IMG/VR virus record: IMGVR_UViG_3300020580_000022
Span: 1-48,211 of that record
Strand: one strand, 5' to 3'
Length of the DNA stretch: 48,211 nucleotides
DNA from: a virus
The notes beneath the pieces were generated by a model that ran no database searches, was not told where the DNA came from, and saw nothing but the letters and a program-made list of their open reading frames with translations. Position 1 is the stretch's first letter; each line of letters opens with the position of its first letter. The position numbers were made by a program, and so were the translations under genes. Below are positions 4,914 to 45,617 of this stretch, in pieces.

Positions 4914-5255
4914 ATGGCCGGTGAGGTAAGTTCCATGATGGATAAATGGCGAAAGGCTCGACAGAAGCTTGTTGATAATATTGCTGCAGAAGTTGATAAA
5001 CAAATAGCTTTGATGCCCACAATAGAAGCTGATGCCAAGGCGGCGCTCGCATTGCCTGCCGCGGAATTAAATAAAACACGCGATGAGATTAATGCTATTC
5101 ACGATGAATTTGCCAGCTTGACGAATGGTGGTCCTATCCGCCCTTTGCCCGATACATTATCTGGAGGCGCACCATCGCCACCCGTGCAAGTGCCACAGCG
5201 ACCATCTAGCCCTACTCCTGATGCAGTTAAGAATGTGGTGAATGAATTACAATGA
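4914..5255 (+). CDS. Hypothetical head-region protein with Pro-rich tail
   Basis: 113 residues from ATG 4914 (MAGEV...), preferred over the in-frame ATG at 4854 because the extra 20 residues look non-coding. The N-terminal two thirds is a long Ala/Lys/Glu helix, probably a coiled coil, with Trp-Arg-Lys near the start. The last ~35 residues are Pro/Ser-rich and disordered. Local G+C is higher than its neighbours. The stop overlaps the next gene's ATG (ATGA). Function unknown. Confidence 0.55.
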   Translation: MAGEVSSMMDKWRKARQKLVDNIAAEVDKQIALMPTIEADAKAALALPAAELNKTRDEINAIHDEFASLTNGGPIRPLPDTLSGGAPSPPVQVPQRPSSPTPDAVKNVVNELQ

Positions 5256-5503
5256 TTAACGTTTCAGAAATGAAGGATGATGAATTATTAGCATTCGGTC
5301 AAAAGATGGTCGATATGCATAATAATCGAAAGAATGCTTTAAGTAATGATATTCATATCGAACGATTAAAGACAAGGAAAGTTATAAGTCAAGATCATGA
5401 ACAATGTGATAAGTTAGCATCATTGAAAGATCATATTAATCCTGAATATAAACTATTAATGGAAGCCATCGATCAAGAAATTGTTAAAAGGAATTTAAGA
5501 TGA
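5252..5503 (+). CDS. Small hypothetical protein upstream of scaffold
   Basis: 83 residues, charged and helical, overlapping its neighbours by 4 bp on both sides, so probably translated by re-initiation between 4914-5255 and the scaffold gene. No motif recognised. Confidence 0.55.
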   Translation: MINVSEMKDDELLAFGQKMVDMHNNRKNALSNDIHIERLKTRKVISQDHEQCDKLASLKDHINPEYKLLMEAIDQEIVKRNLR

Positions 5504-6408
5504 GTAAAACACCTGAAGAAATTGCTGCTTTGGAAGCAGCACGTAAAATGGTTAATATGACTGGTGTAGCAACAAAGGATGATAATGGTAACGTTATTGA
5601 AACAAAAGAAGATGACAAAGAAACAGGAAGTGAAGAAAATAATACAAATAATAAAGAGAATATTGAAAATACAAATGAAATTACAGAAACTGAAGGAAAT
5701 AAGCAAGAAACTGAAATTGAAAAGATAGAAAAGACTGAAGAAGAACTAGAGACTGAAAAACAAGAAGTTAAAACTACTGCTGAAAAGGCACGCGTTCAAC
5801 GAAAGATTGATAAAGAGGTTGCCAAGCGAAAGACGCTTGAAGAAGAACTTGCAGAAACAAAACGTCAACTTGCTGCTGCTAAAGAAGGCAAAGAAGGCAA
5901 ATTTGATGAAGATGAAGTTGATAAGCGAGCTAACGCTAAAGCAGAACAAAAGGTTGCAGAACGTGAATTTTTAAATGCAAGCAATCGACTTGCTGATGCT
6001 GCGGAAAAGCTTGATAAAGATTTTATAAAGAAGATCAAAGTTATTGCTGAAGAAACCGCACCTATTCCAGGTCATATGATCGGAATTTTAGATGATCTTG
6101 ATAATGGTGGTGCAGTGCTAGTTTCATTAGCTGATGATGTTGATGAATACGAACGTATTATAACTTTATCTCCTGCAAAGGCGGCTGTTGAATTGACCAA
6201 ATTATCAGTTAAACTTGCAGCAAAGCCTGCATCTAAAGCAGTTTCTAAAGTTCCTAAGCCTATCGAACCTATCGGTGGTAAAACATCAGGTACAAATAAC
6301 GATATGGTTATTACTGATAAAGATACTCAAAATATGAATGAATTTATTCGAAAGCGAAATATTCAAATTGCTGAAAGACAGAAGATGAAAGCAGCAGGAT
6401 ATCGATAA
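5500..6408 (+). CDS. Scaffold-like protein
   Basis: 302 residues, extremely rich in Glu, Lys, Asn and Thr. Residues ~40-90 are low-complexity acidic, ~75-165 are a strong coiled-coil prediction by eye, and the C-terminus is a basic helical segment (FIRKRNIQIAERQKMK). Acidic, coiled-coil proteins with a basic C-terminal helix placed just before the coat gene are typical of P22 gp8-type scaffolds, whose C-terminal helix binds coat protein. A GIY-YIG endonuclease now separates it from the coat gene. Identification is by layout and composition. Confidence 0.65.
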   Translation: MSKTPEEIAALEAARKMVNMTGVATKDDNGNVIETKEDDKETGSEENNTNNKENIENTNEITETEGNKQETEIEKIEKTEEELETEKQEVKTTAEKARVQRKIDKEVAKRKTLEEELAETKRQLAAAKEGKEGKFDEDEVDKRANAKAEQKVAEREFLNASNRLADAAEKLDKDFIKKIKVIAEETAPIPGHMIGILDDLDNGGAVLVSLADDVDEYERIITLSPAKAAVELTKLSVKLAAKPASKAVSKVPKPIEPIGGKTSGTNNDMVITDKDTQNMNEFIRKRNIQIAERQKMKAAGYR

Positions 6409-8710: not shown

Positions 8711-9148
8711 ATGGCTGATTTTGATAGCAGTATCGGACAACACGATGCCCACAAATATAGTGCGAGTAATCCTCATCCTATGCATGGTAAAGACCCTAAT
8801 ATCATGAATGAATTAGGACATACTTATTATCCTAAATACGTTCATGAGTATGATGATAAGGGTGCCATTGTTTATGATAAAGTGGTTCTTCAGTTAACCC
8901 ATCCAACTAAGGGAAGCACTTACGATAGCCTTCAGCATCCTTCATTAAGTCAACATTCCAGAATTGTTAATAATGAAGATGAAGAAAAAGAAGCTAACGG
9001 AGATGGTTATTTTTTTACGCATGTAGAAGCTAAAGCAGCTAACAAGACGTCAAAGAAAACTGTTGAAAAAGATAAGTTAGAAAGAGATCAAGCTCAAACT
9101 AAGTTAGATAAAGATACTAAAGTATGGCCTGAAGCTAGAGGTAAATAA
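8711..9148 (+). CDS. Hypothetical virion-region protein
   Basis: 145 residues from ATG 8711, which has an AGGTG Shine-Dalgarno about 7 bases upstream; earlier in-frame codons lack one. The N-terminal half is His/Asp/Pro-rich, the C-terminal ~50 residues are Lys/Glu-rich and probably helical. It is flanked by terminators at 8660 and 9163, so it may form its own transcription unit or receive read-through. A head-decoration or minor capsid role is possible but unsupported by motifs. Confidence 0.55.
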   Translation: MADFDSSIGQHDAHKYSASNPHPMHGKDPNIMNELGHTYYPKYVHEYDDKGAIVYDKVVLQLTHPTKGSTYDSLQHPSLSQHSRIVNNEDEEKEANGDGYFFTHVEAKAANKTSKKTVEKDKLERDQAQTKLDKDTKVWPEARGK

Positions 9149-34322: not shown

Positions 34323-34562
34323 ATGAATAAGAAATTAAACCCAAAAACAAAGACTGAATGGCGTGATTGTGTGCTTGAATTACTTAATGAACGATCACGT
34401 CGTATTGAATATGATGATATTGAGAAAGCTACAGGATTAAAGAAAGCATGGTTAACGTTATTTGCAACAGGAAAAATAGATGGTCCATCAGTTAATGCAA
34501 TGAATACTTTACACGATTACCTTGTTGAACAAATGAACGGTAAAAATGACAAATCAATATGA
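34323..34562 (+). CDS. Cro/CI-like helix-turn-helix protein
   Basis: 79 residues. The middle (YDDIEKATGLKKAWLTLFATGKI) fits a lambda-repressor-like HTH, followed by NAMNTLHDYL. Divergent from the leftward operon, so it may control that promoter region. It overlaps the primase-helicase start by 17 bp. Confidence 0.65.
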   Translation: MNKKLNPKTKTEWRDCVLELLNERSRRIEYDDIEKATGLKKAWLTLFATGKIDGPSVNAMNTLHDYLVEQMNGKNDKSI

Positions 34563-36843
34563 ATGTATTCCAAATGAACTTAAACAACTTAAATCTTGGA
34601 TAGTATGGAAATATGAAGATGGACAATCACGAAAACCTACCAAGGTTCCTTATATTCCTGGGACAGATATTCATGCTAATGTTTCCGATGCTACTACTTG
34701 GGTTGATTTTAATACTGTTATTAATACTGTAGGAAATTATGATGGTATTGGTTTTGTATTTAGTACTAGTGATCCTTATAGTTTTATTGATCTTGATGAT
34801 TGTGAAGGTAATCAAGCTGACTTAGATAGACAAATAAAAATATTTAGAGAATTTAATAGTTATGCTGAAATAAGTCCTTCAGGTAAAGGATTACATATAA
34901 TTGTTAAAGGTGTTGTGCCATCTGGGCGCAGGCGTTCCCACATTGAAATATACTCATCGCAACGATATGCAACATTTACAGGTCACACCTATCCAGAAAA
35001 CGAACCTGTTAAACCTATTAAAGATTGTCAATCATTACTTACTCAATTATGGGAACAAATGGGTGCAGGTGCTCCTGCAATACATCTTTTTAAAGGTGAT
35101 GATCAAGAAAAATATACTGATCTTGAAATTATAAATCAGGCGACTGAAGCAGTCAATGGGGATAAGTTTAAGCAATTATATTATGAAAAAGATGCTTGGA
35201 AAGATATTTATCCTTCACAGTCTGAAGCCGATTTTGCATTAATAGATATTATAGCTTTTTATACACAAAATCGAAAACAAATTGAACGCTTATGGAAATT
35301 ATCCGTACTTGCAGATAGGTCTAAAGCGCATCGTAAAGATTATTTAACATGGATGATTAATAAATCCTTCGATCGAATGCTGCCGCCACTTGACTTAGAT
35401 GGATTTAAAATAGCTTTAGAAGATAAAATAGCAGCTTCGTCTAATGGGAAGACAACGGTTTTTGATACCGTGAATATAGGTTCGACTCCTATAGCTGCTG
35501 CCACTACCCTTCCACAAGGCTTATTAGGTGAAATCGCACAATTTATCTATGCGGCTGCACCGCGCCCTGTTCCTGAAATAGCCTTGGCGGCTGCTATTGG
35601 CTTGATGGCTGGCATATGTGGCAGAGCATATAATGTACTTGGAACCGGACTTAATCAATATGTATTGGCATTAGCAAAGACAGGTCGCGGCAAAGAAAGT
35701 ATTGCGTCCGGTATAGATAAGTTAATGAATGCAGTTAAATTTACTGTGCCCACATCTACACGCTTTCGTGGGCCTGGAATTATTAATTCAGGTCAAGCGT
35801 TAATTAAACATCTTTCCACAACATCAAATTGCTTTGTATCTGTGCTTGGTGAATTTGGATTAACTATAGATAGGATAAGTGATAAATATGCTAATTCGGC
35901 GGATAAAATGCTTTATCAAATGTTGCTAGATTTATATAATAAATCAGGAAAGGATCAAACATTACAAGCTTCTATTTATTCAAAGAAAGAAGATAATATA
36001 GGCGTAACGGAAAGTCCGGCATTAACAATTCTTGGTGAAAGTACTCAAAAGATATTTTATAATGTGCTTAATGAAGATATGATTGCCGCAGGTCTTTTAC
36101 CACGATTTTTGATTATTGAATATAATGGTGATAGAGTAGATTTAAATGAAAATCATTATCAAGTTCAACCTCATTGGCAACTTAAAGAACGTTTTGAGGC
36201 TTTGATAGCTAATGTTGAAATGGTAATGCATAAGAAAAGTGTTATTGATGTTCAATGTGATGAGCAGTCAGCAAAGCTATTACGTTTATTTGATAAATCA
36301 GCTACAAAACAAATTAATTCATCAAAAGATGATGTAATTGAAGAATTGTGGAATCGTGCCCACATGAAAGTGTTGCGCCTTTCTGCTTTGATTGCAGTAG
36401 GTGTTAATATGAGTAATCCTAAGATTATTCCTGAATATGTAGAATGGGCAACTAATCTTGTTGAGCGTGATATAAAAATGTTATCGGCTAAATTTCAAGC
36501 AGGGGAAATTGGTAAAGATAGTAATGAAATAAGACAATATAACGATATGATCAGGACTATTAAAGAATATTGTACTTTGCCATGGGAACATGCTAAAAAA
36601 TATTGTAGGTTATCATGTCAAAAATTTCATAATGATAAGTTGATACCAAATGAGTATTTTAATGGCAGAGCAGGCAAATTAACATCATTTTTAAAGGAAA
36701 AGGGAAGTGTTGAAAGGATACAAAAAATGTTAATTGATGAAGGTTTACTTATACAAATAAGCACGCGAGATAAAATATTCATCGATAAATATGGAACTTT
36801 TCAAGGTAAGATATTTAGTACAACACCAAGACTTTTTGAGTGA
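34546..36843 (+). CDS. Primase-polymerase/helicase (NrS-1-like primase, DUF3987-like ATPase)
   Basis: 765 residues. N-terminal primase: FIDLDD (D82, D84) as the metal motif, SPSGKGLH (S110, H117) and IEIYS (E134) as the later motifs, in the manner of phage/plasmid PrimPols. Residues ~335-600 are an ATPase-like domain with AKTGRGKES (377-385) as P-loop. The C-terminal ~100 residues end in a winged-helix-like segment. It should prime and unwind DNA; AT-rich iterons follow directly. The linker around residues 295-319 is encoded by a complete tRNA-Gln gene, and the frame runs through without a stop or a new start. Confidence 0.82.
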   Translation: MTNQYECIPNELKQLKSWIVWKYEDGQSRKPTKVPYIPGTDIHANVSDATTWVDFNTVINTVGNYDGIGFVFSTSDPYSFIDLDDCEGNQADLDRQIKIFREFNSYAEISPSGKGLHIIVKGVVPSGRRRSHIEIYSSQRYATFTGHTYPENEPVKPIKDCQSLLTQLWEQMGAGAPAIHLFKGDDQEKYTDLEIINQATEAVNGDKFKQLYYEKDAWKDIYPSQSEADFALIDIIAFYTQNRKQIERLWKLSVLADRSKAHRKDYLTWMINKSFDRMLPPLDLDGFKIALEDKIAASSNGKTTVFDTVNIGSTPIAAATTLPQGLLGEIAQFIYAAAPRPVPEIALAAAIGLMAGICGRAYNVLGTGLNQYVLALAKTGRGKESIASGIDKLMNAVKFTVPTSTRFRGPGIINSGQALIKHLSTTSNCFVSVLGEFGLTIDRISDKYANSADKMLYQMLLDLYNKSGKDQTLQASIYSKKEDNIGVTESPALTILGESTQKIFYNVLNEDMIAAGLLPRFLIIEYNGDRVDLNENHYQVQPHWQLKERFEALIANVEMVMHKKSVIDVQCDEQSAKLLRLFDKSATKQINSSKDDVIEELWNRAHMKVLRLSALIAVGVNMSNPKIIPEYVEWATNLVERDIKMLSAKFQAGEIGKDSNEIRQYNDMIRTIKEYCTLPWEHAKKYCRLSCQKFHNDKLIPNEYFNGRAGKLTSFLKEKGSVERIQKMLIDEGLLIQISTRDKIFIDKYGTFQGKIFSTTPRLFE
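35430..35503 (+). tRNA. tRNA-Gln (anticodon UUG), nested in the primase-helicase gene
   Basis: 74 bases with a full cloverleaf. Acceptor AGCAGCT/AGCTGCT (7 bp), U8, D-stem GTC/GAC with GGG in the loop, anticodon stem ACGGT/ACCGT with loop TTTTGAT (anticodon TTG at 34-36), 4-base variable loop, T-arm ATAGG-TTCGACT-CCTAT, G73 and encoded CCA. G73 and the UUG loop fit Gln; the loop and its flanks are close to known tRNA-Gln genes. It lies in the sense direction wholly inside a protein gene. Confidence 0.92.
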
Positions 36844-45391: not shown

Positions 45392-45593
45392 AATGAGTGA
45401 ACATATAGGATTAAGCGAACATGATAATTTGACATATTTTCCAATTGAAATTCGATATGAAGGATCAACAGAAAAGGTGATTGTTAATCATCCTATTGAC
45501 TTATTAAATAAGACGTTTAAGGTATTGAGAACAAGAGTGAGCGGGCATAGTCCAAAGGCAGGAGACAAGACACTTAAAATGTCTACAGTGTGA
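45392..45593 (+). CDS. Small protein whose end lies in tRNA-Leu
   Basis: 66 residues from ATG 45392. The first ~48 residues look like a compact alpha/beta protein. The last 17 codons (45541-45590) and the stop are read from the tRNA-Leu gene, so the original C-terminus was likely lost when the tRNA arrived, or the tRNA sequence was adopted as an end. Confidence 0.45.
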
Positions 45594-45617
45594 GTTCGAA
45601 TCTCACTGCCCGCACCA
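45541..45617 (+). tRNA. tRNA-Leu (anticodon UAA) with short variable loop
   Basis: 77 bases. Acceptor GCGGGCA/TGCCCGC, D-stem GTC/GAC with GG in the loop, anticodon stem AGACA/TGTCT with loop CTTAAAA (anticodon TAA), T-arm GTGAG-TTCGAAT-CTCAC, A73, encoded CCA. The D-arm is like tRNA-Leu, but the variable region is only 5 bases (ACAGT) instead of a long arm. It would read UUA, a very common codon here. Confidence 0.9.

Follow-up and report, generated by a model that had tools for sequence, protein, structure and literature searches.

Primase-helicase gene and its nested tRNA

The window analysed here is one complete virus record of 48,211 bases (IMG/VR IMGVR_UViG_3300020580_000022), in which a tRNA-Gln(UUG) gene lies in sense inside the open reading frame (ORF) of a primase-helicase (Table 1). 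The phage has a G+C content of 35-41% and a Septimatrevirus-like replication gene set: DNA polymerase, processivity factor, helicase, Cas4-type exonuclease and Sak4. The primase-helicase is composed of an NrS-1-type primase-polymerase with its helix-bundle domain (HBD), followed by a DUF3987/AAA+ helicase. Both parts match by sequence or fold. Pfam identifies DUF3987 and places the NrS-1 HBD just below its cut-off, the protein matches the phrog_3022 DNA primase (E 8e-212), a PDB profile search gives the NrS-1 primase, and Foldseek retrieves NrS-1 and MCM helicases.

The tRNA is called by ARAGORN as tRNA-Gln(ttg) and matches Rfam RF00005 at 35430-35500 with 61.4 bits (E 5.5e-11; gathering score 29) and zero broken pairs. 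Every stem is complete, and TTC in the T-loop, the anticodon UUG, the discriminator G and an encoded CCA are present (AGCAGCT-TC-GTCT-AATGGGA-AGAC-A-ACGGT-TTTTGAT-ACCGT-GAAT-ATAGG-TTCGACT-CCTAT-AGCTGCT-GCCA). When the mRNA segment is folded to minimum energy, the cloverleaf is part of the structure. The primase-helicase ORF is the only one of at least 60 codons that contains the tRNA. A preliminary description of this DNA had proposed a complete sense tRNA in a frame that runs straight through it, between the primase and helicase parts, and both points hold. Its assignment of the tRNA to the codons of residues 295-319 stands in that the tRNA codes for the hinge, while, more exactly, the 74 nucleotides begin at base 3 of codon 295 and end at base 1 of codon 320, with 24 full codons (296-319) in between.

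Table 1. Primase-helicase gene, its parts and the tRNA genes of the window
Feature	Position	Strand	Basis and remarks
Primase-helicase ORF, 765 aa	34546..36843	+	ORF list; N-terminal NrS-1-like primase-polymerase, helix-bundle domain, hinge, C-terminal DUF3987/AAA+ helicase
Primase-polymerase and helix-bundle part, residues 1-275	34546..35370	+	NrS-1 HBD residues 225-274; NrS-1 primase PDB match residues 8-253
Variable interdomain linker, residues 278-323, disordered core 299-318	35377..35514	+	Alignments; AlphaFold2 pLDDT <50 at 299-318
Nested tRNA-Gln(UUG), encoded CCA, also codons 295-320 of primase-helicase	35430..35503	+	ARAGORN; Rfam 61.4 bits; covariation, 13 nested Gln copies
Helicase part, from residue 323	35512..36843	+	DUF3987 match; no Shine-Dalgarno-led start between tRNA and helicase part
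Second tRNA, tRNA-Leu(UAA), not nested	45541..45617	+	ARAGORN, Rfam; 5' part overlaps only a 77-codon ORF

Nested tRNAs in related phages

Searches of IMG/VR (by protein and by alignment), of bacterial genomes and of isolate phages yielded 128 distinct homologues that could be compared across the linker, window included. Nested tRNAs are found in 18 of them, one or two in each and 29 in total, which argues that the arrangement is not due to chance. All 29 lie in sense within the interdomain linker, a region that makes up about 9% of the length of these ORFs. Their isotypes are Gln(UUG), CAU (Met or Ile2), Leu(UAA) and Tyr(GUA), and the Rfam tRNA scores of the nested relatives range from 48.7 to 71.7 bits. 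Using Q for Gln(UUG), M for CAU and L-numbers for the loci of the relatives, Q stands alone in the window and L007 and M alone in L011, L022 and L310. The order is Q+M in L003, L012, L016 and L028 and M+Q in L006, L010, L021, L023, L060, L067 and L239; a Tyr-like tRNA is found in L026 and Leu in L047.

Some copies have particular features. The two nested tRNAs of L003 (4945-5093) overlap by a single nucleotide, the A that ends the CCA of tRNA-Gln and begins the CAU tRNA, and one transcript therefore cannot give both tRNAs with encoded ends. The tRNA-Tyr(GUA) call in L026 (4214-4291; 48.7 bits) has a short variable arm and codes for a peptide that resembles that of the CAU copies; this tRNA is perhaps decaying or switching identity. 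In L022, a weak Rfam tRNA match (36.1 bits) is spread over 140 nucleotides (8743-8882), as if from an insert-bearing tRNA.

Selection on the cloverleaf and on the reading frame

Covariation was assessed in two sets, 13 nested Gln copies and 13 CAU copies, with 21 stem pairs each and 500 shuffles. In the Gln set, 98.5% of stem cells are paired and 18 of the 21 pairs have changes on both sides. Its covariation score is 0.856 versus 0.22 in shuffles, none of which reaches it, and pairing drops to 33-44% when the partner is shifted by 1-3 columns as a control. The CAU set behaves alike (99.3% of stem cells paired, compensatory changes in 18/21 pairs, 0/500 shuffles). The D-stem of the L028 copy is swapped (GAAC/GTTC). 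Anticodons are constant in the aligned sets (UUG 13/13, CAU 13/13), CCA is encoded in all 26 copies, and each of the 13 Gln copies has a weak 1:72 pair (A-U, U-A or G-U). Since the stems pair to this extent and change in a compensatory manner beyond any of the shuffles, the cloverleaf is maintained by selection as a tRNA while the linker amino acids are free. Stems are thus kept in the relatives and linkers are not, the reverse of the conserved linker with broken stems that the preliminary description had named as grounds against its proposal. No decayed tRNA remnants were detected in the tested closest tRNA-free relatives (Rfam; models R1/R2).

The frame is unbroken by every tRNA situated between the two domains, and all nested copies are open, compared with 32% of frames that are stop-free in 80 other tRNAs taken as control. 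One reading phase is common to the 13 Gln copies and a second one to 12 of the 13 CAU copies of the aligned set. The remaining CAU copy, from L239, has lost one D-loop base and changed phase; it is still open, and the usual phase would be closed there. Spacers of the tandem pairs are 2 mod 3 for Gln to CAU and 1 mod 3 for CAU to Gln in 11 of 11 cases. The copies behind these counts are phylogenetically non-independent and no p-value is claimed. Judged from the sequences, the frame is also under selection.

The AlphaFold2 model, run on a 31-member alignment, has a mean predicted local distance difference test (pLDDT) score of 86.6, with stretches below 50 only at residues 174-180 and 299-318. 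The latter nearly coincides with the tRNA-coded residues 295-320. According to this model the tRNA bases code for a disordered hinge, which accounts for the tolerance of the protein to the tRNA sequence. The linker has a median length of 78 residues in nested and 57 in non-nested homologues. No stop precedes the tRNA, and none of the 18 loci has a Shine-Dalgarno-led in-frame start between the tRNA and the helicase domain. An internal restart for the helicase was rejected on this ground, and the suggestion that the tRNA separates the two enzyme halves finds no support. The best candidate for an internal promoter upstream of the tRNA, a 9/12 match at 35089-35118 (+), is unconvincing. A 9-base repeat near the tRNA is the sole insertion-scar candidate and is probably due to chance.

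Gain, loss and the other tRNAs of these phages

In a protein tree built without the linker columns, one clade of 28 members includes 17 nested ones, while L047 (Leu) is placed apart. The tree requires at least 10 gains or losses, 8 of them forced by well-supported branches. Close kin differ in isotype and order: L022 carries M, L023 M+Q and L026 the Tyr-like tRNA, L024 and L027 carry none, and L002, the sister of the window, has no nested tRNA.

Elsewhere the phages code for tRNAs Leu(UAA), Thr(UGU), Pro(UGG) and Arg(UCU), all outside the primase gene, and Gln or CAU is never repeated there in the 12 regions read. Most of the tRNAs outside the primase gene in these regions overlap no ORF, the remainder only short or opposite-strand ORFs, except in L388. 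In this nested-clade phage, tRNA-Thr(UGU) (962-1037) is found within the end of a same-strand 280-codon ORF (249-1091, -), possibly another tRNA/coding overlap or an ORF called too long. Bacterial tRNA-Leu usually has a long variable arm. A tRNA-Leu(UAA) of 76-78 nucleotides that lacks it is found in the window (45541-45617), L387, L392-L396 and L398; other phages of this group have versions of 84-86 nucleotides.

Further observations concern the primase-helicase genes of relatives. Following residue 380, at the Walker A motif, the L015 gene carries an in-frame insert of ~345 codons (5096-6130) that matches Hom_end_hint and LAGLIDADG and is, by these matches, an intein with a homing endonuclease. 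In L017 and L018 (Pseudomonas phage PSV3 records) the primase-helicase gene is split into 3-5 fragments that differ in frame and overlap in query range, through either assembly errors or genuine disruption. An RF-1-like gene lies downstream of the primase in L019 (phage 73, record 36162-36656). A link to ribosome rescue was dropped, PF00472 being absent from the window record and from the 26 relatives' records searched.

A putative dual-coding locus

The locus is probably dual-coding: the comparative data point to functional, codon-compensating tRNAs housed in the hinge of an expressed gene, where they are tolerated, so that each transcript would give either a tRNA or a protein. The primary transcript of the replication gene would have two mutually exclusive fates. 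In one, the ribosome would cross the tRNA sequence and produce the full primase-helicase, the tRNA bases being read as hinge codons. In the other, the cloverleaf would fold and host RNase P and 3' processing enzymes would excise the tRNA, destroying the message. This conflict is expected from the known action of RNase P and the predicted cloverleaf in the mRNA. A quantitative trade-off between read-through translation and the processing and charging of the tRNA may follow, and a limitation of primase-helicase output by RNase P would be plausible. The hinge would be the one site of the protein tolerant of an arbitrary stop-free insert of 25 to 50 codons, and this tolerance would allow tRNA cassettes gained there to survive, be reshuffled and be lost.

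The nested tRNAs would serve phage codons (CAA; AUG or AUA; UUA) and complement the other tRNAs of the phage. In the window, CAA makes up 83% of the codons for Gln, at 40.7 per 1000, and TTA reaches 40.2 per 1000, a use that fits its two tRNAs, Gln(UUG) and Leu(UAA), and strengthens the earlier proposal that the nested tRNA is suited to CAA codons. Phage tRNAs have been described as codon-compensating or tRNase-evading (PMC10264068, PMC11555353). Protection against tRNA-cutting defences may be an alternative use of the nested tRNAs.

Several points weigh against functional tRNAs in a dual-coding locus. G73 is an identity element of the E. coli glutaminyl-tRNA synthetase (GlnRS), which also needs the weak first pair typical of tRNA-Gln, and the discriminator G is found in only 4 of the 13 nested Gln copies, the window among them. 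Charging is thus not assured in all Gln copies; some of these tRNAs may be charged inefficiently, or may function in hosts whose rules differ. The identity of the CAU copies to E. coli ileX, metT/U and T4 Ile splits between copies, the best E. coli matches of one copy being annotated as tRNA-Ile. The Tyr-like call of L026 scores lower and has no CCA. The window mRNA segment is no more stable than shuffles (z -1.5). Nested tRNAs are absent from all 13 isolate-phage regions scanned and annotated in no isolate phage among the matches listed, every nested member being a metagenomic contig.

It is conceivable, although we propose it only tentatively, that the nested tRNA is a built-in switch in which the choice between protein and tRNA depends on the traffic of ribosomes along the primase-helicase message. 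Early heavy translation would keep the cloverleaf unfolded and favour the protein; later or slower translation would release the tRNA, RNase P coupling tRNA supply and replication-enzyme output in a feedback loop.

Less likely, the cloverleaf serves chiefly as a cleavage element that mimics a tRNA, draws RNase P to cut and down-regulate the primase-helicase message and has no part in decoding. Its position within a replication mRNA, the absence of G73 from 9/13 Gln copies and the fact that some mRNAs are known RNase P targets (PMC11143913) would agree with this. However, such an element would not account for invariant anticodons, for CCA encoded throughout, for the retained weak 1:72 pair or for isotypes that complement the phages' other tRNAs, and close relatives manage without any nested tRNA. 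Still more improbable is a neutral hitch-hiker, i.e., tRNA DNA once inserted in the hinge that now merely provides linker codons. The linker accepts almost any sequence and losses are frequent, but the strong compensatory evolution of all four stems across very divergent copies contradicts neutrality, as does the lack of decayed remnants in the non-nested relatives tested. The location of the tRNA exactly between two domains could recall an ordinary intergenic tRNA flanked by separately translated primase and helicase genes; this is hardly tenable with a frame open across all 29 tRNAs, no Shine-Dalgarno-led start after the tRNA and the same single ORF in tRNA-free relatives. Splicing of the tRNA as an intron with re-joining of the message halves can practically be dismissed: nothing more than the general existence of RNA ligases favours it, excision of 74 nucleotides, a length not divisible by 3, would put the two halves out of frame with each other, and it is without splicing that the frame is open.

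The locus shows that complete tRNA genes can reside, repeatedly and on the coding strand, within the frame of a conserved replication enzyme, and challenges the habit of treating a tRNA inside an ORF as an annotation error. It would bring translation and RNase P into a clean conflict over a single RNA that is amenable to genetics, and offers an example of an interdomain hinge that can act as landing site for foreign RNA genes. No precedent for an in-sense tRNA gene serving as codons of an ORF was found in the open-licence literature, most subscription journals lying outside it.

Comparison with known systems

The protein family and the gene neighbourhood are those of NrS-1-type primase-polymerases and of the Septimatrevirus primase-helicase. 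The phage 73 protein (gp036) is 47% identical to that of the window and is encoded by a single ORF with an ordinary linker; unlike in the window, the linker carries no tRNA in phage 73 or in any other scanned isolate. The isotypes found here overlap those of the phage T4 tRNA cluster (Gln, Ile, Leu, Thr, Pro, Arg), which likewise accompanies AT-rich phage codons. The T4 genes form an intergenic cluster, whereas the nested tRNAs lie inside a replication gene. Mixed tRNA-mRNA transcripts are found in the tufB and metY-nusA operons of E. coli, where a single transcript likewise carries tRNA and protein message, and processing by RNase P is in competition with message integrity. The tRNAs of these operons are outside the reading frame, while here the tRNA itself provides codons. 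RNase P also cleaves mRNAs, such as those of T4 gene 32 and the his operon (PMC11143913), which have in common with the present locus a structured mRNA segment as possible substrate. These substrates are mimics or processing intermediates, in contrast to the full tRNA gene with anticodon and CCA found inside the primase-helicase ORF. Transfer-messenger RNA (tmRNA) likewise combines tRNA and mRNA character in one RNA. It is a dedicated rescue RNA whose tRNA domain codes for no part of a normal enzyme, whereas the nested tRNA does.
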